Shown: one piece after another, positions 1,886 through 15,909 of the stretch | How positions within the stretch are numbered: position 1 is the stretch's first letter | Layout: each line of letters starts with the position of its first letter | Assembly (NCBI RefSeq): GCF_004634245.1 | Contig: NZ_SJTF01000018.1 | Coordinates: 1 to 64,000, forward strand | Direction of reading: 5' to 3' | DNA length: 64,000 nt | From: Flavobacterium foetidum | Lineage (GTDB): Bacteria; Bacteroidota; Bacteroidia; Flavobacteriales; Flavobacteriaceae | The notes under the pieces: model-generated | The model's input: the letters and a program-made list of their open reading frames with translations, nothing else | Told to the model about the DNA's origin: nothing | Databases searched by the model: none | Position numbers and translations under genes: made by a program

Positions 1886-3952
1886 TTAGATTAGTTTCTT
1901 TAAACTGCTGTAAACCGCCAGTTCCACATCAGCATGATCTTTTGTGTTGCATTCTTCTACAAGCTTATTTAACTCCGTCGCTTTCAATGACGATTTGTTA
2001 TCCAAAACCGACAAGAAGGCTTGCGAAACGTCGCTCAATCTTTTAGACAAAGGTAGAATTGGCTGCACTAAAGGCGCATTAGTACTTAATTCAATTAATC
2101 CTTTATTTAAAGAAATCCATTTATTGAAAAAGGCAGTCAGTTTTGCTTTGTTTTCAGGCGTTTTGGAAGCTAGATATTGATTAACGGCTTCATCAAAACG
2201 TAAAGCATCTTTCGCATCTGGCGTACAAGCATCTGCAAAAAGCGTTAGAGGCGAATACATCTGATACTCCGTTCCGTTTTTATTTCGTGTATATCCTTTT
2301 AATGGCTCGCAAACATTCGTAAATTCATCCAACACTTCGACATTCTGATTATTCGAAATATTTCTTAAAATCACCGCTTTGTTTCGAATATGTGTCAATC
2401 CTAATTCTTCCAGTCTAAAAGAAACTGTTTCAAGACGTCTGCGCATACTGTCAACATCAGTAACATCTTCTGCAGACCAAAGCCTTTCGGCAATTGCCGC
2501 AGTTCTCGGCCACAGCCTAGAATCTATGGTTAATGGCGTTACAAGCTCTGTCCACATGGTTGCTTCACCTCCAAGAATTCTTGCTTTTTCTTCTGTAGAT
2601 AAATTGACGCCTTTCGGCATCGGATCATTTAAGTAATGACTTGTAACCGGATACATCAAATCGATGTAAAAACCATTAGACAAGACCGTTTTATAGCCTT
2701 TTTTTACAGCGTCTACCAATGACTGGCCAGCAACAACTCCTTCGTTTGGACCTCTCCAAGAATGAACAATAGCTTCTTTAGACAAATCTTTGGTCAAAAT
2801 TTCTTCCCAACCCATCAGCTGTTTTCCGTGTTTTTTAAGCATCGGTGCCAGTTGCATGGTAAAATAAGTCTGTAATTCGTGATTTGTTTTGAGATTGTGT
2901 TTCTTTTTGAATTCCTGTATTTTCGGATTGGCATCCCAATCTTTCCCTTCGTTTTCATCTCCCCCGATGTGAAAATATGCTCCTGGAAAAAGCGGACAAA
3001 CCTCATCAAAAATTTCGCTTAAAATTTGATACGTCTTCGGATTTGAAGGATCTAATGTCGGTGTAAAAATACCCGCATTTCTTTCAATTCCGTAGGTTGC
3101 AATTGCAGTGCCTTTAATGTTTTTTTCGGAAGTTCCACCAGTCAGCGTAATCACTTTGCTCCCTATTTCAGGATAAGCAGTAAGTATAGCCGATCCGTGA
3201 CCCGGAACATCTATTTCGGGAACAATCAAAATTCCTCTTTCATCTGCGTATTTAACTATGTTTTTAATTTCTTCCTGCGTATAGTACAAACCGTCAGAAG
3301 CCAATTCTATTAACTTTGGATGTTTTTTCATTTCAATTCTCCAACCTTGGTCGTCTACCAAGTGCCAGTGAAAAACATTCATTTTCATTGCCGCAAGTCC
3401 GTCAAGATTTCTCTTGATTACATCTATTGGCTGAAAATGCCTTGATGCATCAATCATTAATCCTCTCCAAGTAAAACGAGGAAAATCTGAAATCTGCGAA
3501 ACTGGAAAATAAAATGAGTTGCTGTTGTTTTGAAGAATCTGCAGCAAAGTTTCCAGACCGTGCAAAGCTCCCAAATCGCTTGAAGCGTTTATCGTAATCT
3601 TATTCGACTTAATATCTAAATGATAGCTTTCGTCTTCATAAAGTCCGATTTTGCCCACTTTAGCACAGTTGATCTGCAGTTCTGCATTTGGAACTTCGTT
3701 TAGTTTTGTAACAAATCCTTGCTCGAAAAAAATACCTGTCCTGTCATCTAACCGACGTAAAAAACGAGTTACTCCTCCAAAAATCCTCGAATTCGGATTT
3801 CCGGTTATGTTTACTTTAAAGTTTTTGGTTAAAGAAAAATTCCCATCATTTACAACAACACTTTGAGGCCAAGGCATGAGATTGAGCTGCTCTTTTTTAA
3901 TCTGAGCGCCAGCCGTTACCCCCGCTAACAGCAGTACAAATAAATATTTCAT
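1886..3952 (-). CDS. Beta-N-acetylhexosaminidase, glycoside hydrolase family 20
   Basis: Releases terminal GlcNAc from chito-oligosaccharides by substrate-assisted catalysis. It has 688 residues: a signal peptide (cleavage likely after AGA, so periplasmic), a GH20b N-domain at about 20–150, the TIM-barrel catalytic domain at about 160–510, and a C-terminal helical extension. Visible family motifs are WRGLMIDASRHF (163–174), FHWHLVDDQGWR (194–205), PEIDVPGHG (245–253) and HIGGDE (328–333), where D332–E333 is the catalytic pair. It starts at an ATG after a 150-bp gap behind the NagB–PIG-L gene and is the last gene of the leftward susC operon. Context assigns it to chitobiose breakdown after SusCD uptake. 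The family assignment is firm; the exact chain-length preference is unknown. Confidence 0.96.
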   Translation of the reverse strand: MKYLFVLLLAGVTAGAQIKKEQLNLMPWPQSVVVNDGNFSLTKNFKVNITGNPNSRIFGGVTRFLRRLDDRTGIFFEQGFVTKLNEVPNAELQINCAKVGKIGLYEDESYHLDIKSNKITINASSDLGALHGLETLLQILQNNSNSFYFPVSQISDFPRFTWRGLMIDASRHFQPIDVIKRNLDGLAAMKMNVFHWHLVDDQGWRIEMKKHPKLIELASDGLYYTQEEIKNIVKYADERGILIVPEIDVPGHGSAILTAYPEIGSKVITLTGGTSEKNIKGTAIATYGIERNAGIFTPTLDPSNPKTYQILSEIFDEVCPLFPGAYFHIGGDENEGKDWDANPKIQEFKKKHNLKTNHELQTYFTMQLAPMLKKHGKQLMGWEEILTKDLSKEAIVHSWRGPNEGVVAGQSLVDAVKKGYKTVLSNGFYIDLMYPVTSHYLNDPMPKGVNLSTEEKARILGGEATMWTELVTPLTIDSRLWPRTAAIAERLWSAEDVTDVDSMRRRLETVSFRLEELGLTHIRNKAVILRNISNNQNVEVLDEFTNVCEPLKGYTRNKNGTEYQMYSPLTLFADACTPDAKDALRFDEAVNQYLASKTPENKAKLTAFFNKWISLNKGLIELSTNAPLVQPILPLSKRLSDVSQAFLSVLDNKSSLKATELNKLVEECNTKDHADVELAVYSSLKKLI

Positions 3953-4102
3953 TTTTAGTTTTTTGATTAATACTATCCTTTGATAATATTGTAATTAGAA
4001 AAAAAACAAAACTCAGAAAGACCTTTATTGAATCTCACAAAATCGCAAAACAATCCATCTGAATTTTGCTGTTTGACCCGAACAATTTCGAATCGATAAA
4101 TT

Positions 4103-6040
4103 TTAGTAATCAAAACGTTTGAAGGCTTCAATCGCTTCATACTCTGCCAAACCTAATTCGTCATAAAGTACAGCGGTATTTTTGTTTCGGTCTTCTGCCC
4201 TAACCCAGAATTCCCTTGAATCATTGCCTTGAAACATAACCCTGTCTTTCTGCGATTGATGGTACAAAATGGCGTGGCGTTTCAACAGCACTTCTGAAGG
4301 ACTCAGCGGCACAGCCATATCAATTTCGTGTATGTCCCATTCGTGCCAAGCGCCTCTGTAGAGCCATAACCAGCAGTCGTCCATATAAGATTCTGTTTTC
4401 AGCTCTTTTAATGCCGCAAAAATGGCATTCAGGCAAACTTCATGCGTACCATGAGGGTCTGCCAAATCTCCCGCTGCAAAAACCTGATGCGGTTTTATTT
4501 GAGCAATAATATTTTTTACAATAGCAATATCTTCGGCTCCCAACGGATTTTTCTTAACCTGACCCGTTTCATAAAAAGGAAGATCCAAGAAATGTGTATT
4601 TTCATCTTTGAGGCCTATATAACGAGTTGCGGCGTACGATTCTCTTCTTCTGATCAAACCTTTGAGTTTTCTGACTTCTAATGAATCAATCTGGTTTTCA
4701 GTTTTATTTTTTAGAAATTCAATGACTGCCTTGAAATTGATATCTGCTCTATCTTCGCCAACAAAATCACTGGCAACTTCTGCAAATTTTAGAGCTTCTT
4801 CGTCAGAAACTGCAATATTTCCAGAGGTTTGATATACCACATGAACATCATGACCTTGTTTGATTAACTTCGAAAAAGTTCCTCCCATAGAAATCACGTC
4901 ATCATCTGGATGCGGACTAAAAAGAATTACTCTTTTCTTTGCCGGATGAGCCCTTTCTGGACGAAACGAATCGTCTGTATTAGGTTTTCCTCCCGGCCAG
5001 CCAGTAATGGTATGCTGCAGAATATTAAACATATTGATGTTCATATCATAAGCAGAACCTTCTTGAGCCAAAAGATCAGACATTCCGTTATTATTATAGT
5101 CACGGTCGGTCAGCTTTAAAATAGATTGTTTTGTTTTTTGACATAACCAAACAATTGCTTTGCTTTTAAGTTCTGGCGTCCAAAGACATTCTCCGACAAG
5201 CCAAGGCGTTTTAAAACGGGTCAGTTCGGCAGCTGCAGACTGGTCCAGAACAAAAGTTGCGTTAGGATGATTCTGTAAAAAAGTTGCAGGAACTTCTGAA
5301 CTTATATCTCCTTGAATCGTTCTTTTAATGATATCTGCCTTATTTTGTCCCCATGCCATCAAAACAATACGTTTTGACCTCATAATTGTAGAAACTCCCA
5401 TTGTTATGGCGCGTTTCGGAACGTTATCGATGCCATTAAAAGCAGACGAAGCATCGACTCTAGTGATATGGTCTAAGGTGATAATTCGGGTTCCGGAATT
5501 AATATGCGAACCTGGTTCGTTAAAACCAACATGTCCTGTACGACCAATTCCCAGAAGCTGGAAATCAAGACCACCTGCATTCTTAATATTCATCTCATAA
5601 TCGATGCAGTATTGATTGATTTCGTCGATTGCAACTGTACCATCGGGAATGTTGATGTTTTCTGGTTTGATATCGATATGATTAAAAAGATGCTCATGCA
5701 TGAAATAGTGATAACTCTGATTGTTCTCTTTTGTCATCGGATAATATTCATCCAAATTAAAAGTGATTACATTGCTAAAACTTAGTCCTTCTTCTCTATG
5801 CATTCTCACCAGTTCTTCGTAAACTTTTATAGGAGAAGAACCGGTAGCTAAACCTAAAACACAAGATTTGTTTTTCTCTTGCTTAGATCGAATCAGCTGC
5901 GCAATTTCCTGTGCTACTATTATAGAAGCTTCTACAGAATTTTTAAAGATTTCGTTATGAATTTTTTCAAATCGAGTTTCTTCAAACTTTCCTGCGCTTT
6001 TATAACTAATATCAGGTTTTATATCTAAAGCACTTTTCAT
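4103..6040 (-). CDS. nagB: NagB-like glucosamine-6-phosphate deaminase fused to a PIG-L (LmbE) deacetylase
   Basis: A 645-residue cytoplasmic fusion. Residues ~25–300 are NagB-like: GLATGSSP (63–70) for phosphate binding, FNLDEYY (95–101) carrying the general-base Asp98, and GRTGHVGFNEP (166–176). Residues ~368–640 are a PIG-L deacetylase with HPDDD (377–381) and a further metal-ligand pair in DPHGTH (528–533). NagB turns GlcN-6-P into Fru-6-P plus ammonia; PIG-L enzymes remove N-acetyl groups, so the fusion could perform both NagA and NagB steps (inference; no nagA is seen here). Odd: the family Asp of G-N-D-G-H (Asp141 in E. coli NagB) is Thr168. Similar long NagB-like proteins occur in Bacteroidota. 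I chose the ATG at 6038–6040; an upstream in-frame ATG at 6106 adds 22 residues that precede the usual start. Confidence 0.9.
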   Translation of the reverse strand: MKSALDIKPDISYKSAGKFEETRFEKIHNEIFKNSVEASIIVAQEIAQLIRSKQEKNKSCVLGLATGSSPIKVYEELVRMHREEGLSFSNVITFNLDEYYPMTKENNQSYHYFMHEHLFNHIDIKPENINIPDGTVAIDEINQYCIDYEMNIKNAGGLDFQLLGIGRTGHVGFNEPGSHINSGTRIITLDHITRVDASSAFNGIDNVPKRAITMGVSTIMRSKRIVLMAWGQNKADIIKRTIQGDISSEVPATFLQNHPNATFVLDQSAAAELTRFKTPWLVGECLWTPELKSKAIVWLCQKTKQSILKLTDRDYNNNGMSDLLAQEGSAYDMNINMFNILQHTITGWPGGKPNTDDSFRPERAHPAKKRVILFSPHPDDDVISMGGTFSKLIKQGHDVHVVYQTSGNIAVSDEEALKFAEVASDFVGEDRADINFKAVIEFLKNKTENQIDSLEVRKLKGLIRRRESYAATRYIGLKDENTHFLDLPFYETGQVKKNPLGAEDIAIVKNIIAQIKPHQVFAAGDLADPHGTHEVCLNAIFAALKELKTESYMDDCWLWLYRGAWHEWDIHEIDMAVPLSPSEVLLKRHAILYHQSQKDRVMFQGNDSREFWVRAEDRNKNTAVLYDELGLAEYEAIEAFKRFDY

Positions 6041-6177
6041 TTCTTTTCTTTTTTTTGTGGTAATTCCCTTTTGGATTTTAAGAATGGTATAGACAGTCGT
6101 AGCCATCTATACCATTACTACTAACCAAACTTAAACCCTTGTGATCTGTAATTTTTTGATTTTTTACTGTGGCGGTT

Positions 6178-7203
6178 TTAGTTGCCACAGAGACTTGTAG
6201 TTTTTACTTTTAATGACGTATATTTTTTATGAATTACTTCCAGTAAAGAATATTCATCAAATGAATCTTGTGCGAGTTCCCAAATCATGATTCCACCAGT
6301 ATTTTGGGCTGCATATTCTACTTTCTGCGCAATGGTTGGTCTTCCGTTGTAATAGATTTTCCCCATTTCATCTAGTTCTATAAATGGCTTTCCTGCTGCG
6401 ACAATATCACTAAATTTTGAGCTAGTCACTTCTGGATTCGTAAAATTATAACCATAAAAAGGCACACCAAGAGTCAGTTTCTCACTAGGAACATTTTGAA
6501 GTTTATGCCAGAAATCTATTCCTTCCTTAGCAAAAGCAAAAGAACTATGCTGACCAGGTTTGTTTGGTGCCCAAGGACCAGTGTAATCATAAGCCATTAC
6601 ATTGATAAAATCGAAAGCTTCTAAAGCAGCTGCATTTATGTTTTCAAAACGAGAATTATTTGGAAGCGCAGCAGTCAATAGCTTTTTATGCTCCATCATG
6701 CTCTTTTTTAACTCCACAACAAAACCACTGTAACCAACTGTTACAGCATCCCATTCTAAATCTACGTCAACGCCGTCCAGCTTATGTTGCTCGACAAAAT
6801 TTACAATGTTCTGAATTAAAGCTGGTCTGTTCTCAGGCTTATCAATTAACCATGACCAATTTGAAGCTTGTTCTTCTGAGATTACGCCACCTGCCAAAGA
6901 TATACTTATAACAATATTAGGATTAACTGATTTGGCATATTTCACCAATGCATCAATATCTCCTGAGAAAACAATGTTTCCATTTTTATCAGGATTTGCA
7001 AATGCCACATTGAGATGTGTTAATTTACAAAACTGAATTGATGTCATTTTATCAAAATTATCCGTAGATAGATATCCTACAACTCTAGATGTCTTCTTTT
7101 TGGTATTATCAATTTCTGAATCTTTTTGAGACGTACAGCTGTAAACAGAAATAAGTGAACTTATAAAAAAGAGGATGCCTAATAAGGCTTTATTTTTTCT
7201 CAT
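6178..7203 (-). CDS. GH18 chitinase-like lipoprotein
   Basis: Predicted to cleave beta-1,4 bonds between GlcNAc residues (GH18: chitinase or endo-acetylglucosaminidase). It has 341 residues, with a lipoprotein signal ending at Cys23 (lipobox VYSC), so it is membrane-anchored. The GH18 barrel motifs are complete: SLAGG (102–106, the SxGG element), DGVDVDLE (143–150) with catalytic Glu150, and MAYDY near residue 205. No carbohydrate-binding module and no T9SS C-terminal domain is present, so it is a small periplasmic or surface enzyme rather than a secreted multi-domain chitinase. It lies 47 bp after susD and before nagB-PIG-L in the leftward operon, which fits processing of imported or surface-bound chitin oligomers. 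Confidence 0.94.
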   Translation of the reverse strand: MRKNKALLGILFFISSLISVYSCTSQKDSEIDNTKKKTSRVVGYLSTDNFDKMTSIQFCKLTHLNVAFANPDKNGNIVFSGDIDALVKYAKSVNPNIVISISLAGGVISEEQASNWSWLIDKPENRPALIQNIVNFVEQHKLDGVDVDLEWDAVTVGYSGFVVELKKSMMEHKKLLTAALPNNSRFENINAAALEAFDFINVMAYDYTGPWAPNKPGQHSSFAFAKEGIDFWHKLQNVPSEKLTLGVPFYGYNFTNPEVTSSKFSDIVAAGKPFIELDEMGKIYYNGRPTIAQKVEYAAQNTGGIMIWELAQDSFDEYSLLEVIHKKYTSLKVKTTSLCGN

Positions 7204-7250
7204 ATTTTTGATTTTAATACTACCTTATTAGGCATAACTCTATTTTAGTT

Positions 7251-8768
7251 TTAGTTTACATCCCACCAAACTTTGTTCAGCCAGTCGTTTGTTCCTCCCA
7301 TTCTAGACAGAGCCTCTTTATAGTTGACTCCATTCTTCTGCATTTCATCATTTGGATAGTATAAACGTTTTGGCGTAACACCATTTGTCTCAGAATCTGG
7401 ATTTGTAATTGGCAACAATTGCGGGAAACCAGTTCTTCTCCAGTTAGAATACGCTTCAATACTATTGAATAAGTAAGTTACCCAAAGCTGTGTTGCAATT
7501 TGTTCTTTTTCAGACCCTGCCACTAAAGGTTTTGCTGTCAAATACGTATTAATAGCTGCTGGAGTTGCTGGAGTTGCTCCATAAATTTCTAATTGCCTAA
7601 TACCCGCTTCAACTCCTTTTCTATAATAATCTGCTGCTGTACCCGTTACCCATCCTCTGTATGCTGCTTCAGCCAATAATAATTGTGATTCTGAATAACT
7701 AACATGCAAAAATGGTGTAGTTCTTAATTTCAAATAAGGCTGGATTCCAGAAATAGCGTTTGAACCACCTGGCATTTCCCATTGAAAAAGACCTGGAGTA
7801 TTTCCTATGTACAAATCTTCTCCTGGAAGAGGAGCTCCACCCGCTGCGCCTGCAGTTTTTGGAGTTGCAAGCATAGTTAATCTAGGGTCACCGTTATTTT
7901 TCAAGAAATTAATCATTAGAGTGCTAAAGTGGTCACCATTTTCATTTCCAATTAGTGCATAAGACAATCCGTTTCCTCTAAAATCAAGTGCTCCTGGAGT
8001 ATCATTAAACGGATAATCTAAATGTTTCATGATACAGTTGTCCAAATTGCTTTCGAAAACTCCATTTTGAAACGCTGCTTTTGCTTGTTTTTCAGCTTCA
8101 GCCGGTTTTACTTCTGAGATTCTCATTGCTAAACGCAAACGAATTGTATTAGCAAGTTTCTTCCATTTTGAAATATCTCCGTCATAAAATAAGTCTCCTT
8201 TTACTGCACCACCATTTGCATTTAATTGCACAAAAGCCTCTTCTAATTCAGCAAAAAATTGATTGTAGATATCCTCTTGTTTATCATATTTCGGAGTTAC
8301 AATTCCTTTAGAGAAACCTTGACCTGCTTCTGAATAAGGACAATCGCCATATAAATCGGTAATACGCTGTGCGACCATTACTCTCATAATTTTCGCCACG
8401 GCATTCATATTGACCATGTCGGCTTTTCCGCTTGTTTTCTCGATAACGTCTACGATACTTTTTAATTCATTAGCATATCCATTTCTCCATATTGCCGTTG
8501 CATAGTCGTCATTTTTCTTAAACTTACTTCCAAATTCTGTTACATTCCACGCTCCTGCATAGTGTTGCACAAAGCCTCCAGAATAAATTAAATTGGCTCT
8601 CCATTGATAGTATCCATCACCAGACATACACAATTGAGTAAAAGAAAGCTGTCCTGCTGGATTTGCAGATAACGCAACGGGATCTTTTTCCAGTTCGTCA
8701 AAATTGTCTGTACAGCTTACCGTAGCAAAAGTTACAAGTGCAGCTAATATTATATTTTTAAATTTCAT
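7251..8768 (-). CDS. SusD/RagB-family nutrient-binding lipoprotein
   Basis: Surface glycan-binding partner of the SusC-type transporter, closing over it to capture oligosaccharide. It has 505 residues with a lipoprotein signal (Cys19 in ATVSC), then the helical TPR-like SusD fold typical of the SusD-like_2 group. Its start lies 12 bp after the susC stop codon, the standard susCD arrangement. Downstream GH18, NagB and GH20 genes suggest the ligand is a chitin-derived oligosaccharide (inference from context). SusD proteins are too divergent to read specificity from sequence alone. Confidence 0.95.
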   Translation of the reverse strand: MKFKNIILAALVTFATVSCTDNFDELEKDPVALSANPAGQLSFTQLCMSGDGYYQWRANLIYSGGFVQHYAGAWNVTEFGSKFKKNDDYATAIWRNGYANELKSIVDVIEKTSGKADMVNMNAVAKIMRVMVAQRITDLYGDCPYSEAGQGFSKGIVTPKYDKQEDIYNQFFAELEEAFVQLNANGGAVKGDLFYDGDISKWKKLANTIRLRLAMRISEVKPAEAEKQAKAAFQNGVFESNLDNCIMKHLDYPFNDTPGALDFRGNGLSYALIGNENGDHFSTLMINFLKNNGDPRLTMLATPKTAGAAGGAPLPGEDLYIGNTPGLFQWEMPGGSNAISGIQPYLKLRTTPFLHVSYSESQLLLAEAAYRGWVTGTAADYYRKGVEAGIRQLEIYGATPATPAAINTYLTAKPLVAGSEKEQIATQLWVTYLFNSIEAYSNWRRTGFPQLLPITNPDSETNGVTPKRLYYPNDEMQKNGVNYKEALSRMGGTNDWLNKVWWDVN

Positions 8769-8780
8769 AATTTCTATTTT

Positions 8781-11700
8781 TTAGAATGTAACTTTAAGAT
8801 TAAAACCATATGATCTTCTAAATGGTAAAGAACCATACTCAAAACCTTGTCCGTTTCCTGAAGTATACATAGATTCAGGATCAACGTTTGGTAAATCTTT
8901 ACTAAAAGTCAATAAATTTCTAGCAAATGCTGAAACATAAATTGAGTTTATTTTTGATCCAGCGAAAACACTTCCAGGAATTGTGTATCCTAAACTTAGC
9001 TCTCTCAATTTCACATAAGAAGCATCATAAACAAACGGTGCTGGTGAGTTGTTGAAAACAGTGCTCCAGTAATCTTGAGGATTAACCGGTCTTGTATTTT
9101 GCACATAGTTTGGATTGTCTGCTGTTCCAGTATTTACAACACCTTGCACTACGTAACCAGCTGTAGGAATCCATGTTGACTGGCTAAAGTTCGGGTCATT
9201 TGCAACCGCTTCAGCTCTGGCTGCATTGTAAGCATCTCTTCCTTCTGTTGTAATATCCAAAAGACCTTTTTGAGCCGCAAGTGCATTTGTCATAGAATAA
9301 ACATCCATTCCAAATTTCATATCAAGCAAGAATTGAAGTGTAATTCCTTTATAAGAGAAACGGTTTGTCAAACCTGCTGCCCAATCAGGAAGACCTTTTC
9401 CTAAAGCCACTTTATTATCTGTAAATAAAGGCATACCGTTTGCTCCAACAATTTTTTCTCCAGATGGTGTTCTTAAGAAATCTTTCCCCATAATTGTTCC
9501 ATACTGTCCTCCAACTTGTGCCACAATCGCTGCACCAGCCCAACGAGCTTCAGAAATAGTATAAGTATCAATATCTGGATGTAAAGACACGATCGAGTTT
9601 TTATTTCTAGAGAAGTTCAAATCAATTCCCCATTCAAAATCTTTTGTTTTGATTGGCGTACCAGATAAGAATACCTCGATACCTTCGTTACGCAATTTAC
9701 CAGCATTTACAGAGATAAATTCATATCCAGATGTTGCAGATGAAGGTAAATCTATAGTTTGGTCTGAAGTATCTTCACGGTAAACTGTAATATCAGCTCT
9801 TAATCTGTTTTTGAAGAAAGCTGTTTCAAGACCAAACTCAATTCCTGTTTTAGACTGGTATGTTAAATTTGGATTTGGTGCAGAAGTATTTTTAATATTT
9901 ACCACACTTCCTCCATTATAAGAAGAATAAGTTGTATAATTTAATGCATTTTTATAAGCGCCCGGAGCATTCGAAACTTGTGCCCAAGAACCTCTTAATT
10001 TACCATAAGAAAATGTATCGCTCTGAAGTCCAAGTGCATCAGAGAAAATGAATCCCATCGAAGCTGCCGGATAAAAAGCATCTTTATTAATTACACTAAA
10101 CCAGTCGTTTCTTCCTGTAAACTCAGCATATAAATATCCTTTGTAATCAAATTTTGCAGAACCGTAAACAGAATTAGTTCTTGTTTTTGTTTCTACCGGA
10201 GCATTTTCAGTTTGGTTAGAGAAATTACTAATGTACTCTGTTCCTGGCTCAATAATATTAGTTGCAAATCTAGAGTTTTGTTGTCTTCTAAAATCTCTTC
10301 TACCTGTACCAAGAATTCCTGAGAAAGTAAAATCTTTTGCTAATTTAATATCACTAAAAGTAGCAATGATATCGGTATTCATTTCAGAGACTTTAATACC
10401 TTCCAAACCTAAATAACCATTATCTCTTCCAGGCCAAGTGTTTCCACCTTCCATAAAATCTTTGGAATCAAAAGTGTAAGTATCTAAACCCGTTCTAAAT
10501 GTTAATCCAACCCATTTTTTCAATTGGTATGTTCCTGTAACATTACCCATAAAACGGTTTTTCTTAGTTGCATTATGATTTTGGTTTACAATCCAGTAAG
10601 GATTCAATGAATACACATTGTTATTCCACTGATACATTCCTCCAGTTTCTGGATTTTGAGCATTTTGCAACCATGCCTGATCAATATTTGGCGCCAAACC
10701 ACTTAAGGCATACCCAACGTTATTTGGAGAATCTCCTAAACCTGGTCTGTTATTCGTGTTTTCTACCATATAGTTTACATTAGCATCCAAAGTAAATTTT
10801 TCAGATTTTAATGTGGCATTTAAACTTGCATCATTTCTTTCTAACCCTGTGTTCGGAATTACATCATCATTTTTTAAATTATTATATCCGAAACGTACAA
10901 ATGCATTTTCACTTCCTGAAGACAAAGAGATACCATTTGTCATCGTAACTCCTGTTCTAAAAAAGTCTTGAATATTGTTTTTAACTCTTGCATAAGGTTT
11001 CATAGAGCCATCAAATATTACAACTTGTTGCCCAACCGTTTCAGAAAACTTAGGCCCCCATGCATTTGTAGTGTAGCTATAAACTTCAGTAGGTCTTGCT
11101 GGATCTGGTAAAAGTCCGTTAGATCCTGAACCATATTCTGTTTGATAATCACTATATTTAGCATTCACACGATCAAAGCTCACCCCGCTATTAAGTTCTA
11201 CTTTTAATGCTCCTTTACTTCCTTTTTTAGTAGTAATCAAGATTACTCCATTTAACGCTCTAGAACCATATAAAGCTGCAGCTGCTGCACCTTTAAGTAC
11301 CGTTAAACTTTCAATGTTGTTTGGGTTGATACTTGAGATTCCATCTCCGCTATCTCTACCGTCAAACCATTTACTTGTTGCCGCTTGATCGTTATTTAAT
11401 CCTGAGTTGTCAATTGGCACGCCATCAACAATGTAAAGTGGCTGGTTACTTTCGCCAATACTAGAAATACCTCTAATAATAACACGAGTACTTCCACCAA
11501 CACCAGTTGCAGGAATAGACACATCAACACCGGCAACCTTACCAGAAAGTGCTGTAGCAACATTTGTAGTGATTACTTTGTTTAACTGGTCTCCTTTTAC
11601 ATCCTGAACAGCATAACCTAATTCTTTTTTCTGTCTCTTAATACCTAATGCCGTTACCACAACTTCATTAAGATTTTGAGCATCTTCAGCAAGCGAAACG

Positions 11701-11966
11701 TTAAACTGTGCAGCATCTGTAACAGTTACAGATTGAGATTTGAAGCCAATGTACGAAAATACTAAAACGTCATTTTTTGTTGCTTGAATTGTATACAATC
11801 CATCATAATCTGTCTGGCTTGCTTTGTTTGTTCCTTTAATAAGGACTGTAACTCCTGGTAATGGCAAACCCTTTGTGTCTGTTACCAAACCTTTGACTGT
11901 TTTTACTTGGGCAAACATAATTTGCGCCGTAAAAACAATCATAAAGATTAAGAAATTTTTTTTCAT
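8781..11966 (-). CDS. SusC/RagA-family TonB-linked outer-membrane transporter
   Basis: A TonB-dependent import channel for oligosaccharides, 1061 residues. Order: signal peptide (ending FAQ near residue 20), a carboxypeptidase-regulatory-like beta domain at about 25–100 (VKGLVTDTKGLPLPGVTV), the SusC signature and TonB-box region near 100–115 (NEVVVTALGIKRQ), a plug domain to about 250 (GSRALNGVILITTKKG), and a long beta-barrel ending in the aromatic residue of LKVTF. It is the first gene of the leftward operon. Two copies of a 13-bp motif lie 65 and 86 bp upstream of its start codon, at 12031–12043 and 12052–12064. Expression is probably controlled by the divergently encoded two-component system. 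Confidence 0.97.
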   Translation of the reverse strand: MKKNFLIFMIVFTAQIMFAQVKTVKGLVTDTKGLPLPGVTVLIKGTNKASQTDYDGLYTIQATKNDVLVFSYIGFKSQSVTVTDAAQFNVSLAEDAQNLNEVVVTALGIKRQKKELGYAVQDVKGDQLNKVITTNVATALSGKVAGVDVSIPATGVGGSTRVIIRGISSIGESNQPLYIVDGVPIDNSGLNNDQAATSKWFDGRDSGDGISSINPNNIESLTVLKGAAAAALYGSRALNGVILITTKKGSKGALKVELNSGVSFDRVNAKYSDYQTEYGSGSNGLLPDPARPTEVYSYTTNAWGPKFSETVGQQVVIFDGSMKPYARVKNNIQDFFRTGVTMTNGISLSSGSENAFVRFGYNNLKNDDVIPNTGLERNDASLNATLKSEKFTLDANVNYMVENTNNRPGLGDSPNNVGYALSGLAPNIDQAWLQNAQNPETGGMYQWNNNVYSLNPYWIVNQNHNATKKNRFMGNVTGTYQLKKWVGLTFRTGLDTYTFDSKDFMEGGNTWPGRDNGYLGLEGIKVSEMNTDIIATFSDIKLAKDFTFSGILGTGRRDFRRQQNSRFATNIIEPGTEYISNFSNQTENAPVETKTRTNSVYGSAKFDYKGYLYAEFTGRNDWFSVINKDAFYPAASMGFIFSDALGLQSDTFSYGKLRGSWAQVSNAPGAYKNALNYTTYSSYNGGSVVNIKNTSAPNPNLTYQSKTGIEFGLETAFFKNRLRADITVYREDTSDQTIDLPSSATSGYEFISVNAGKLRNEGIEVFLSGTPIKTKDFEWGIDLNFSRNKNSIVSLHPDIDTYTISEARWAGAAIVAQVGGQYGTIMGKDFLRTPSGEKIVGANGMPLFTDNKVALGKGLPDWAAGLTNRFSYKGITLQFLLDMKFGMDVYSMTNALAAQKGLLDITTEGRDAYNAARAEAVANDPNFSQSTWIPTAGYVVQGVVNTGTADNPNYVQNTRPVNPQDYWSTVFNNSPAPFVYDASYVKLRELSLGYTIPGSVFAGSKINSIYVSAFARNLLTFSKDLPNVDPESMYTSGNGQGFEYGSLPFRRSYGFNLKVTF

Positions 11967-12030
11967 GTTTATTTTATTTTGTTAGTTATGAGGTAAAATT
12001 ATTCTTAAGACATTGTTAAAAAAAATAAAT

Positions 12031-12043
12031 TAAACCAACGACA
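12031..12043 (-). promoter_or_regulatory. Candidate LytTR operator, copy 1 (susC side)
   Basis: TGTCGTTGGTTTA on the minus strand, the copy nearer to susC. An identical copy lies exactly 21 bp away and a third precedes the permease gene. LytTR regulators are known to bind direct repeats spaced by whole helical turns. The assignment to this regulator is inference. Confidence 0.65.
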
Positions 12044-12051
12044 ACAAAATT

Positions 12052-12064
12052 TAAACCAACGACA
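12052..12064 (-). promoter_or_regulatory. Candidate LytTR operator, copy 2 (susC side)
   Basis: The second perfect copy of TGTCGTTGGTTTA on the minus strand, 21 bp (two helical turns) from the first. Both copies lie in the 271-bp gap between susC and the sensor-kinase gene. Confidence 0.65.
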
Positions 12065-12081
12065 TAAATCATTCAATAATG

Positions 12082-12098
12082 CGTTTTACGAAAACGTT
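12082..12098. promoter_or_regulatory. Palindromic site CGTTTT-ACG-AAAACG
   Basis: An inverted repeat at 12082–12096 in the susC/kinase intergenic region. It includes ACGAAAACGTT (12088–12098), which recurs on the minus strand before pfkA (45472–45482). The AAACGTT core resembles LacI-family operators. No LacI-type gene is in the window, so this is only a candidate. Confidence 0.35.
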
Positions 12099-12237
12099 CT
12101 ATCTAGAAAATAAAACATCATTTGAGTTTATTTGGGAAATTTTATTCAAAAAAATTGCGACTTTGCCTTTAATTGTTTAAAGTTGCACAAGATTTAATTC
12201 GTGTTAAGAAAAACCAAAAACCTTAATTGCTTGTCCA

Positions 12238-13290
12238 TTGAAAGAAATTCGAAAAGTTAAGTTTAACATAAAACTGCAGAATCATATTTGGTTTTGGGGA
12301 GTGTACTTTACTTTAAACTTTTTAAGATGGGGAGCTTATTTTAATGACTATCCTTACGCATTCAAATCGAATTTGATAGAGTTCTCTTTGGTTATTCCTT
12401 TGGTATATCTCAATTTATTTGTTTTAGTCCCTAAATATGTACTAAAGCAGAAATACATTATGTATACGTGTTTGTTACTAGTCAGTTTATTTGCAATCTA
12501 TTTACTGAAAACAGCTCTAACCTATTACATTATATCTGAAAACATCTGGCCGGAAGCCAATCGAGAATACCATCCTTTCGAAATAAATCACATCGTTGCT
12601 GTTTGTATTGGAGAGTTGTATGTTTTGGCAATGGCTTCTTCGGTGTATCTTACACTGACTTGGCTGCGCGAAAGAGAAAGAAACCGCTCCTTAAGAGAAA
12701 ATCAATTTAAAATAAAACTGAAGTACCTTGAGAATCAGATTCAGCCACATTTTTTTTTCAACACTTTAAACAATCTTTACGCCCTATCGCTAGAATCGTC
12801 AAAAAAAGTTCCTGATGTAATTATAAAATTATCTCATCTGATGGAATATGTTTTGTACGACATAAAAGGGACCAAATTTGTACCACTCATCAAAGAAATA
12901 GATTATATTCAGAATTACATTGAAATTGAAAAATTGCGGTTTGAAAATGTAGAAGTGGCCATAAATTTAGAATCGGCTATAGAAGATGTCGTGGTACCGC
13001 CGCTGATTTTTATTTCATTAGTCGAAAACGCTTTCAAACACGGAGGTTTAAACAATAATAGCCTAAAAATCAAAATCAATTGCAAAGTTGTAGACAATAA
13101 AACACTTGATTTTGAAATTTTAAATAATTTCGTATTTTCACAAAACCATAATCCCAAAAAAGGGATTGGGCTCGTAAATACCAAAAAGAGATTAAAGCTC
13201 ATTTACAAAAACAATTTCAGTCTCAAACACCAAACAAAATTTAATTTCTACATAATCAGATTACAAATACCTATCCAGCATGAAGATTAA
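12238..13290 (+). CDS. LytS/YehU-type sensor histidine kinase
   Basis: The 350-residue membrane sensor of a two-component pair. Four hydrophobic segments fall within residues ~15–145 (near 17–30, 46–65, 74–96 and 118–140). A His_kinase domain follows, with QIQPHFFFNTLNNL and phospho-acceptor His171. The C-terminal ATPase part has ENAFKHG and GIGLVNTKKRL. There is no large periplasmic sensor domain, so the signal is probably sensed in or near the membrane. The start is a TTG at 12238–12240: an in-frame stop lies at 12223–12225 and no ATG precedes the first membrane segment. It is divergent from susC and overlaps the response regulator gene by 11 nt, which implies translational coupling. It likely controls the chitin/GlcNAc genes on both sides (context). 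Confidence 0.9.
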   Translation: MKEIRKVKFNIKLQNHIWFWGVYFTLNFLRWGAYFNDYPYAFKSNLIEFSLVIPLVYLNLFVLVPKYVLKQKYIMYTCLLLVSLFAIYLLKTALTYYIISENIWPEANREYHPFEINHIVAVCIGELYVLAMASSVYLTLTWLRERERNRSLRENQFKIKLKYLENQIQPHFFFNTLNNLYALSLESSKKVPDVIIKLSHLMEYVLYDIKGTKFVPLIKEIDYIQNYIEIEKLRFENVEVAINLESAIEDVVVPPLIFISLVENAFKHGGLNNNSLKIKINCKVVDNKTLDFEILNNFVFSQNHNPKKGIGLVNTKKRLKLIYKNNFSLKHQTKFNFYIIRLQIPIQHED

Positions 13291-13981
13291 ATGTGTATTA
13301 ATTGATGACGAACCCTTAGCAATCAAGGTTCTGCAGAATTACTTTGTCAATTTTACAGATTTTGAAGTTATCGGCACATTCAACAACTCTCTTGAGGCGC
13401 TTGACTTTATCAACAGTACTTCTGTAGATGCTGTTTTTCTCGACATCAACATGCCCATGATGACTGGTTTTGAACTGATTAGCCTTATCGAAAACAAAAC
13501 TAAAGTAATCATCACAACTGCATTTAGAGAATTTGCTGCCGAAAGTTACGATCTTGATGTTTTGGATTACCTGGTAAAACCTATTCCGCTCCCAAGATTC
13601 ATCAAATGCATCAATAAAATCACTACAGAATATAATCTCAAAAACAACATAAAAGTCGAAAGCTCAAAAGGCGACTCTCATATTTTTATCAAGGTTGATA
13701 AAAAAATGATGAAAATCAATATCGAGGAAATTCTTTTTGTTGAAGGCATGAAGGAATACATCAAAGTTGTAACTCCAGACAAAACCTACATCACGCATAA
13801 ATCTTTAACTTCATTATCAGAAGAACTTCCTGCTGAGCGTTTCCTTCGTATTCACAAATCTTATGTAATTGCCTTAAACAAGGTAAAATCAATAGAAGGA
13901 AACCGAGTTCAGATTCAGTCTTACAATATTCCGATAGGAAGAAACTACAGTAAAGACGTTAAAAACAAAATTCTGGAGTAA
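13280..13981 (+). CDS. LytTR-family response regulator
   Basis: A 233-residue DNA-binding regulator. Residues 1–~118 form a receiver domain with acidic residues Asp9/Asp10, phospho-acceptor Asp55 in FLDINMP, and Lys near 104 in YLVKPIPLP. Residues ~134–231 are a LytTR domain (ILFVEGMKEYIKVV, then RIHKSYVIALNKV and IPIGRNY). Its ATG lies inside the kinase gene. The flanking intergenic regions, before susC and before the permease, share the 13-bp motif described separately, which is a reasonable target. Family identification is firm; regulation of the chitin genes is inferred from position and motif. Confidence 0.95.
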   Translation: MKIKCVLIDDEPLAIKVLQNYFVNFTDFEVIGTFNNSLEALDFINSTSVDAVFLDINMPMMTGFELISLIENKTKVIITTAFREFAAESYDLDVLDYLVKPIPLPRFIKCINKITTEYNLKNNIKVESSKGDSHIFIKVDKKMMKINIEEILFVEGMKEYIKVVTPDKTYITHKSLTSLSEELPAERFLRIHKSYVIALNKVKSIEGNRVQIQSYNIPIGRNYSKDVKNKILE

Positions 13982-14042
13982 TTATCCTATTTATATATTT
14001 TTTTATAAAACACTTTAAATTAACACTTTGTTGAAAAAATAA

Positions 14043-14055
14043 TGTCGTTGGTTTA
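14043..14055 (+). promoter_or_regulatory. Candidate LytTR operator before the MFS permease
   Basis: TGTCGTTGGTTTA on the plus strand, identical to both susC copies and in the same orientation relative to the downstream gene. It lies 102 bp before the ATG. A weak partial match (about 7 of 13) lies 21 bp upstream at 14022, which might be a degenerate half-site. Confidence 0.6.
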
Positions 14056-14157
14056 AATTTAACATTATTTATATCGTTTTATTTTTTTTTGAAACCGCTA
14101 ACAAATATATTTACGGTCTTCAAAAAACAAATTATATAAAAAATTAACCTCATTCTT

Positions 14158-15909
14158 ATGACTTCAGAAAATGTACAAACCAAATGGGGGCAGTTTATCT
14201 CACTGATAATTGTCTTCTTCTTTTGGGGTTTTGTCGGCTCTGCCAATGACATCCTTATTCCCGTATTCAAAAAAGTATTTACGTTATCGCAGGTACAATC
14301 ACAATTAGTAGCGTGGGCATTTTATGCTGCGTATTTCGTAGGTTCAATCATATTTTTTATTGTGTCGCTTAAAGCTGATGTTCTACAAAAATTTGGATAC
14401 AAAAAAACATTGGCCGCCGGATTAGTTCTTTCTGCAGTTGGTTCATTTTTATTCATCCCAGCCGCATCTTTCGGGAGTTTCCCTTTCTTTTTATCTGCAT
14501 TGTTTATCGTTGGGTTAGGGTTTTCGATTCAGCAGATTGTTGCCAATCCTCTGGCTATTAAAATGGGAGACCCAGCAACCGGAGCACACCGATTAACTCT
14601 TGCAGGAGGTATCAACTCTTTCGGAACAACAATTGGAGCTATCTTACTTGGAATTGCCCTATTCGGAATGGGAAATAACGAGGAAAGCAAAAAAGACAAA
14701 ACTTCTATTGAAATTATACAAGGTGATTTCGTTAAACTAAAAAATGAAATCACAGAAAACATAAAGCAAATCAAAAGCGACAATGTTGACCCTAAAACAG
14801 TTACAGAAACTGCCGCAAATGCTTTAACAGAACAGCTTGCTAATGTTGATGCTCAGTTGCTAGCAATTTCGGGCAGTGCAAAAGATGCACCAGTTAAACC
14901 TTTTGTTAAGCAGTACGAAACAATTGAAAAGGAAGTTGCAAAAGTAGAACTGCCTTTGCAAGTAGTGAAATCAAAATTAGAATTAGTAAAATTCCCTTTC
15001 ACTATCTTAGGAATTGCATTTATTGTAGTGGCTATTTTTATGTACTTCTCTAAAATCGAAGACCCTGCAAAAGTAGATCCAGAAGCTATAATCGAGCATG
15101 AAAAAGGAAAATTCAGCATTTTCGACTATCCTCAGTTATACTTAGGAATGTTAGGAATCTTCATTTATGTTGGAACAGAAGTTACCATCATCAGCAACCT
15201 TCCTGCTTTATTAAAAACAAGCGAGTTCGGAAGCGTTCTAGAAGATGCAATCGCTCCTTTTATCGCCCTTTATTGGGGAAGTTTAATGATCGGACGCTGG
15301 AATGGCGGTGTAAATGTTTTCAATACTTCAAACCTAGTAAATACAGCGCTTAAGTTTATTGTTCCAGCTTTAGCATTCGGAGTAATTATTGGAGCAAATA
15401 TTTTTGCTGCTCACGACGTTTCTTCATTCTACATTTACCCGATCTGGATTTTACTATTCATTGCCGTAAGTTTCGTAGGAGGAAAAAATGCCGGAAAAAC
15501 ATTAATGCTTTTTGGAATTTCAGGACTTGTAATGATGGTTCTTGGACTGGTGTGGAAAGATCCAGAAATCGCTAAATTCTTCTTTATTTCAGGAGGTTTA
15601 TTCCTTTCTATCATGTGGCCTTCTATCTTCGATTTAGCCATCGCAGGATTAGGAAAAAATACCGGAAAAGCATCATCTTTCCTTATCATGATGATTCTTG
15701 GAGGTGGAGTTATTCCGTTGGTACAAGGGGGTATCTGTGATTTGGATGCTACCCACCCAGAAGGAATATTCGGAATCACTTACACGCACTTCTCGTACAT
15801 TGTACCGCTTATCGGTTTTGCTTATTTAGCATTTTACGGATTCTATTGTCCTAAAATCTTAAAAAGACAAGGAATCAGCCACGTAGAAAGCGAAGGCGGA
15901 GGACACTAA
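14158..15909 (+). CDS. MFS sugar permease, FucP/NagP-like, with a long periplasmic insertion
   Basis: An inner-membrane sugar:proton symporter of the FucP (fucose / glucose-galactose) branch. The N-terminal FFFWGFVGSANDILIP (20–35) and NPLAIKMGD (130–138) resemble that group. It has 583 residues, against roughly 400–450 usual. The excess is a charged, soluble stretch at about 172–276, between the fifth and sixth membrane helices and hence predicted periplasmic. The insert is rich in Lys, Glu, Thr and Ala and looks helical. Position beside the regulator and the shared operator motif point to GlcNAc (or its dimer) as substrate, which is inference. It ends in a shared terminator with the convergent transaldolase gene. 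Confidence 0.9.
   Translation: MTSENVQTKWGQFISLIIVFFFWGFVGSANDILIPVFKKVFTLSQVQSQLVAWAFYAAYFVGSIIFFIVSLKADVLQKFGYKKTLAAGLVLSAVGSFLFIPAASFGSFPFFLSALFIVGLGFSIQQIVANPLAIKMGDPATGAHRLTLAGGINSFGTTIGAILLGIALFGMGNNEESKKDKTSIEIIQGDFVKLKNEITENIKQIKSDNVDPKTVTETAANALTEQLANVDAQLLAISGSAKDAPVKPFVKQYETIEKEVAKVELPLQVVKSKLELVKFPFTILGIAFIVVAIFMYFSKIEDPAKVDPEAIIEHEKGKFSIFDYPQLYLGMLGIFIYVGTEVTIISNLPALLKTSEFGSVLEDAIAPFIALYWGSLMIGRWNGGVNVFNTSNLVNTALKFIVPALAFGVIIGANIFAAHDVSSFYIYPIWILLFIAVSFVGGKNAGKTLMLFGISGLVMMVLGLVWKDPEIAKFFFISGGLFLSIMWPSIFDLAIAGLGKNTGKASSFLIMMILGGGVIPLVQGGICDLDATHPEGIFGITYTHFSYIVPLIGFAYLAFYGFYCPKILKRQGISHVESEGGGH

Follow-up and report, generated by a model that had tools for sequence, protein, structure and literature searches.

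The stretch of DNA analyzed here (the window; 64,000 nucleotides of a Flavobacterium foetidum contig) contains a cluster in which a minus-strand run, extending from position 11966 down to 1886, encodes a SusC-like transporter, a SusD-like lipoprotein, a GH18 chitinase, a NagB/PIG-L fusion and a GH20 hexosaminidase, while the genes for a kinase, a LytTR regulator and an MFS permease are oriented divergently from it (Table 1). The regulatory genes constitute a LytS/LytTR two-component system: a membrane kinase of the PF06580 family adjoins a regulator with receiver and LytTR domains. The gene set of the F. johnsoniae-type chitin utilization locus (ChiUL), namely susCD, ChiB, NagB, GH20, CusS, CusR and MFS, is gathered in this one cluster, and its order (susC run, kinase, regulator, MFS) is that found around F. 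johnsoniae CusS/CusR (Fjoh_4563/4564), with the same enzymes except ChiA. F. johnsoniae ChiUL has ChiA and a second SusC/D pair, whereas this locus has one SusC/D pair; no second pair is present in the run from 1886 to 11966, and none of the three GH18 matches in the genome (open frames of 370, 348 and 429 aa) is a double-GH18 ChiA. Compared with its F. johnsoniae counterpart the locus is reduced, and we take the names CusS and CusR from this correspondence.

Table 1. Genes and sequence elements of the F. foetidum chitin locus (positions within the window).
Feature	Position	Strand	Family or basis
GH20 hexosaminidase	1886..3952	-	PF00728
NagB-type deaminase fused to PIG-L deacetylase domain	4103..6106	-	
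GH18 chitinase (ChiB-like)	6178..7203	-	PF00704
SusD-like lipoprotein	7251..8768	-	PF12771
SusC-like TonB-linked outer-membrane transporter	8781..11966	-	TIGR04056
TAATTTTA, putative -7 box for the susC run (+59 from site A core)	11994..12001	-	
Site B, TGTCGTTGGTTTA, candidate susC operator (promoter-proximal), 21 bp from A	12031..12043	-	exact match
Site A, TGTCGTTGGTTTA, candidate susC operator (promoter-distal, strong)	12052..12064	-	exact match
Conserved ATTATTGA element upstream of site A	12073..12080	-	consensus of 73 susC-proximal and 43 second-pair promoters
CusS-type LytS-like histidine kinase, 350 aa	12238..13290	+	PF06580, E=3.9e-24
CusR-type response regulator, receiver and LytTR domain, 233 aa	13280..13981	+	PF00072, PF04397
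CTTTGTTGAA, weak candidate half-site (possible partner of the strong MFS site 21 bp downstream)	14026..14035	+	pair pattern, 2 mismatches
Single strong site, TGTCGTTGGTTTA, ahead of the MFS permease	14043..14055	+	exact match
TATATTTA, putative -7 box for the MFS permease (+59 from site core)	14106..14113	+	
MFS sugar permease, positional counterpart of Fjoh_4565	14158..15909	+	

In F. johnsoniae, joint deletion of cusS and cusR leads to a loss of growth on chitin and the absence of ChiA, and deletion of the MFS gene prevents growth on chitin, GlcNAc or glucose (PMC5127042). As the permease is needed on glucose too, its control may not rest entirely with CusR. We saw no operator described in that paper, whose main text lacks the word 'promoter', and we found no earlier description of a CusR operator in the open-licence literature searched. 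Two features of the encoded proteins can be added: the NagB-PIG-L fusion could provide both deacetylation and deamination of GlcNAc-6-P, and the permease contains an insertion of roughly 80 residues (about 195-272) that is missing from many orthologs, which consequently align to it in two pieces.

Repeats and promoter register

The initial annotation had pointed to three identical 13-bp sites around the regulator genes and had noticed no further exact copy. The three copies of TGTCGTTGGTTTA lie at the positions and on the strands that it gave, each points at its downstream gene, and the two before susC are 21 bp apart from start to start, with a gap of 8 bp. A genome-wide search widens the last observation, as the 5,107,880-bp genome holds three exact copies in total, all of them at this locus rather than scattered. 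The backward-read control pattern of TGTCGTTGGTTTA also occurs, twice, so the copy number by itself is unremarkable; that three copies should cluster within about 2 kb and face the flanking genes is unlikely by chance. One-mismatch single sites are present elsewhere in the genome (L045-L050), and when up to two mismatches are allowed single sites match 186 times, compared with 391 for the backward control; loosened single-site searches are therefore uninformative. What is informative is that the copies recur in a tandem register and that this register is conserved.

This register becomes apparent when related loci are compared, and it shows that the site is not the fixed 13-mer that had first been described: it is degenerate, with a core of GTTNGTWTA that recurs with a 21-bp period. 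Same-strand pairs of this core in 80 named loci are found 116 times at 21 bp and once at 59 bp, with none at any other spacing from 10 to 60 bp and none in the backward-read sequences of the same loci. A core pair is present in 78 of the 80; the other two are L084, which has a one-mismatch pair, and L139, which covers only about 1.3 kb upstream of CusR. For the 41 orthologous loci, the best pair at a lag of 21 has no mismatches in 37, one in three and two in one, versus two mismatches in 40 and three in one for the best pair over 18 other lags, a comparison for which Fisher values overstate the strength, for the reason given below. The best pair of G117, with two mismatches, is no better than those at other lags.

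Site A reads [ATC]GTCGTTNGTT[TG]A in 38 aligned loci, with GTCGTT, the next GTT and the final A invariant, a uniformity that is partly selected because A sites were chosen by their likeness to the motif (at most two mismatches). Site B, which was taken by position alone, is GTTNGTWTAA in 37 of the 38. The alignment leaves out L034 and L035 (pair placed differently), L037 (no kinase) and L044 (CusR cut by the contig end). The susC-side layout of a 9-nt core, a 12-nt spacer and a 21-bp period agrees with the rule for LytTR direct repeats given in PMC4847170 (a pair of 9-11-nt repeats separated by 11-13 nt), which supports the suggestion that these are LytTR repeats at helical spacing. The ATTATTGA element is conserved upstream of site A in both classes of susC promoter, and the offset of -21 is not among the best core matches in the susC promoters.

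The repeats adjoin a conserved T-rich tract and a -7-like box, on its upstream side. Of 73 susC-proximal promoters, 54 have a TAnnTTTA sequence whose start is 59 bp from the core of site A, and the remaining 19 were assigned an offset of +47, as the scan takes the first match; all 43 second promoters have it at +59. It is likewise at +59 in all 74 MFS promoters, which places the single MFS site in the register of site A. The -7 boxes here end in A and so differ in their last base from the flavobacterial consensus, which for sigma-A of F. psychrophilum is TAnnTTTG (PMC9723704).

At the 74 MFS promoters, the offset of -21 is the best match after 0, and it is weak, with a mean of 5.5 of 8 core positions. 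In 74 of the 80 named loci, a degenerate site lies no more than 130 nt from the stop codon of CusR. With up to three mismatches and 300 nt after CusR, it was not found in eight of 41 loci (L028-L031, L034, L036, L040, L041), among which L030, L034 and L040 nevertheless keep a permease that is more than 70% identical; none was seen by eye in 15 CusR-MFS gaps of other genera. The proposal of an operator that links import across both membranes is largely supported; the permease has one strong site with a weak candidate partner, and some relatives lack this permease site.

Distribution of the pair and its putative targets

Full-length CusR orthologs are encoded in 41 of 121 genomes of the genus, including this one, with 74-97% identity in the 40 others; the next matches are at 50% identity or below, except for a contig-edge fragment in G046. 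The exact pair pattern, which was written after seeing the loci of this set, is present in 38 of the 41 CusR carriers versus none of the 80 other genomes. G046, which has the kinase and the CusR fragment, shows no pair in 6 kb at up to two mismatches and none genome-wide by the exact pattern; we left it in the group of 80, and the carrier tally would become 38/42 if it were moved. In 277 further genomes that had not been used for the pattern, the pair occurs in 74 of 87 CusR genomes versus 7 of 190 others, although Fisher values overstate the strength of this and the lag comparison: relatedness among the genomes, and the overlap of the 80 named loci with the genome sets, mean that the tallies cannot be treated as independent. 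The backward control pair pattern occurs in 14 of 398 genomes, about the level seen in the non-carriers (7/190). Loss of the motif from orthologous loci that keep the regulator had been named at the outset as evidence against an operator; the site is instead kept in nearly all of them.

Exceptions to this association exist. Sixteen of the 128 CusR carriers lack the exact pair pattern, and seven of these were inspected: three (G045, G061, G448) have a one-mismatch pair, one (G117) has a two-mismatch pair, and in three (G479, G514, G601) the pair matches both cores without the final A. G558 (L236), also a carrier without the exact pattern, has a two-mismatch pair in the 3.7-kb stretch scanned. 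The susC gene beside CusS in G625 (L261) has no pair at up to two mismatches, and the sole pair in 19 kb of this genome precedes nagB. Of the seven non-carriers with a pair, two (G508 and G691) are assemblies that are 70% and 81% complete, and their pairs are regulon-like, lying before the receptor of the remote operon described below and before a susC gene. Two further matches in the genus scan (G030:C56 and G062:C8) look like chance or unrelated occurrences.

Sites before other chitin genes, which the initial annotation had named as evidence in favour, are found in relatives (before a second susC, nagB and, in one genome, GH20) and not in F. foetidum itself, where a relaxed pair search with up to two mismatches gives eight matches versus eight for the control, none of which stands out. 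Loci with two SusC/D pairs have a separate candidate operator for each susC (L061, L066, L067, L069, L070, L071), and the two exact pairs of the F. johnsoniae CI04 genome, its only ones, belong to a single locus and are separated by about 6 kb. When the second susC/D pair is missing (L064, L065), the pair precedes nagB; in G514 it is ahead of the GH20 gene. Two loci, L062 (9860-12199) and L063 (15055-17406), have genes for subtilases with a T9SS sorting tail between cusS and the susC run, with the pair just upstream.

A candidate remote target was also detected. Five of the 121 genomes (L054-L058) have a further pair between pnp and an operon for a 268-aa protein, a TonB-dependent receptor and a DUF4249 protein (families named on L055). 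Close orthologs of this receptor (90-100% identity) are confined to those five among the 121 genomes, the next match being at 60%. The same arrangement of pnp and the TonB-receptor operon is found in G508, and G503, G566 and G607 have the same 31-base pair as the remote operon on a contig other than that of CusR. The motif was not found beside related regulators: no copy is located near the 48-49% CusR paralog of F. foetidum (G000:C26:177798-178496, L042), which is beside a 39% CusS paralog, or near the regulator of the related locus L043, at up to two mismatches in each case.

Across the family, CusR has matches with E values of 1e-60 or better in 78 of 299 genomes (F. foetidum among them). 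The matrix trained on Flavobacterium finds pairs in four of 28 short family-level loci that were scanned. Twelve longer loci were fetched from the better matches, not at random, and in 11 of these a relaxed lag-21 pair precedes susC or nagB, with no other in about 16 kb each; as the diverged form was spotted by eye and the relaxed pattern written afterwards, this count is descriptive. The twelfth (L231) has neither a divergent susC nor a pair. CusR identity in the 11 loci is 48-54% in ten and 80% in L228, and the diverged pair typically has the form TGTTGTCTRTGTG...TGTCGTTTATATAA.

A candidate operator for CusR

Polysaccharide utilization loci (PULs) are a hallmark of Bacteroidota, and most of the PUL regulators that have been studied belong to the SusR-like, hybrid two-component or ECF sigma/anti-sigma types. 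SusR-like and hybrid regulators of PULs are described in PMC3878776. When the repeats are considered in the context of these results, the three copies are very probably half-sites of a CusR operator for the coordinated activation of the chitin uptake genes, a reading in which binding by CusR is predicted from the sequence. We infer direct binding, an effect of phosphorylation, activation at each promoter, a single operon and the nature of the signal, as follows. A chitin or GlcNAc-derived signal would activate the membrane kinase CusS, and phosphorylated CusR would then bind sites A and B head-to-tail on one face of the DNA, 21 bp being two helical turns. Bound CusR would recruit RNA polymerase to a Bacteroidota-type promoter, whose putative -7 box follows the site A core at a distance of 59 bp, and would switch on the susC-susD-chiB-nagB-GH20 run for outer-membrane import and breakdown; the inner-membrane permease would be switched on via its strong site and the weak upstream partner.

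The repeats could alternatively be bound by a different regulator encoded elsewhere (e.g. of LacI, AraC or Crp type), with the LytTR system a mere neighbour. Regulators may reside in loci outside their control, the conserved ATTATTGA could be the site of another protein, and G046 retains the kinase and a CusR fragment without the pair. We nevertheless regard this as improbable, because the pair tracks the presence of CusR across the genus, stays with CusR when neighbouring targets are exchanged or missing, and shows the LytTR period. The sequence would also permit CusR to repress, with induction lifting the repression, instead of activating; however, this is highly improbable given that the sites do not overlap the putative -7 box but lie upstream of it (the box is at +59 from core A), and that the cusS-cusR deletion in F. 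johnsoniae loses ChiA and causes no derepression (PMC5127042). That the repeats are a conserved promoter or 5'-leader element of PUL genes with no dedicated regulator, as their position just upstream of the conserved T-rich tract and -7-like box might suggest, is likewise highly improbable, since the pair is rare without CusR (at about the level of the backward control) and both the 21-bp spacing and the tracking of CusR would be left unexplained.

An operator of this type has precedents. LytTR direct-repeat operators are already a known kind of system, encountered at the transporter gene yhjX and in staphylococcal agr, a quorum sensing system. The E. coli YpdA/YpdB-yhjX system is also of the LytS/LytTR type, with direct repeats comprising a high-affinity site A and a low-affinity site B before the target, and it differs in its repeat (GGCATTTCAT), its signal (pyruvate) and the lack of a PUL (PMC4847170). 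HdrR/BrsR of Streptococcus mutans likewise involves direct repeats, mostly with 12 bp between them, just upstream of the promoter; there the regulator is paired with a membrane inhibitor protein and is autoregulatory (PMC6193735). AgrA of Staphylococcus aureus is also a LytTR regulator that acts on two direct repeats upstream of its target promoters, in a different locus (PMC4227749).

The LytTR two-component system of a PUL thus gains a concrete candidate operator with a defined promoter register, one that suggests how the uptake of chitin products across the outer and inner membranes can be coordinated. It also allows the CusR regulon, including the unexpected remote TonB-receptor operon, to be read from sequence in many Flavobacteriaceae.

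Natural variants of CusS and CusR

The hydrophobic segments of CusS predicted by hydropathy (near residues 44-70, 72-99 and 114-140) are all within the first 140 residues, and hydropathy indicates no large extracytoplasmic domain. It has been predicted that CusS senses periplasmic chito-oligosaccharides (PMC5127042); the hydropathy profile sits uneasily with that prediction.

In one Flavobacterium species, G017 (L037 6340-6990, G017:C31), the kinase has decayed to a C-terminal remnant with no ortholog elsewhere (the best other match is 28%), there is no susC/D beside the remnant, and the candidate operator pair is directly before nagB, with CusR retained. Residue 55 of this CusR is E, in place of the D found in the 40 other orthologs of the first set and in 107 of 108 loci of the second, overlapping set, in which the exception is again G017. 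The analogous substitution in E. coli YpdB, D53E, has been used as a phosphomimetic (PMC4847170), and D55E in G017 is possibly a natural one. D55E does not always accompany kinase loss: G479 has no CusS ortholog (best match 27% identity), lacks the neighbouring susCD and has the pair directly before nagB, yet its CusR keeps D55, so G017 is one suggestive case and not a rule.

We tentatively suggest, as a possible though doubtful extension, that the CusR operator forms a portable control module, which remains coupled to its regulator as the target genes change and can come to work without the kinase. D55E may then lock nagB of G017 in the on state, and the signal for CusS may be read in the membrane or via a transporter, not as free periplasmic chito-oligosaccharide. 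Natural variants of these kinds (kinase loss, D55E and the diverged sites of other genera) are useful for dissecting LytTR specificity. A sequence search against solved structures gave mostly receiver-domain matches among the 60 listed.
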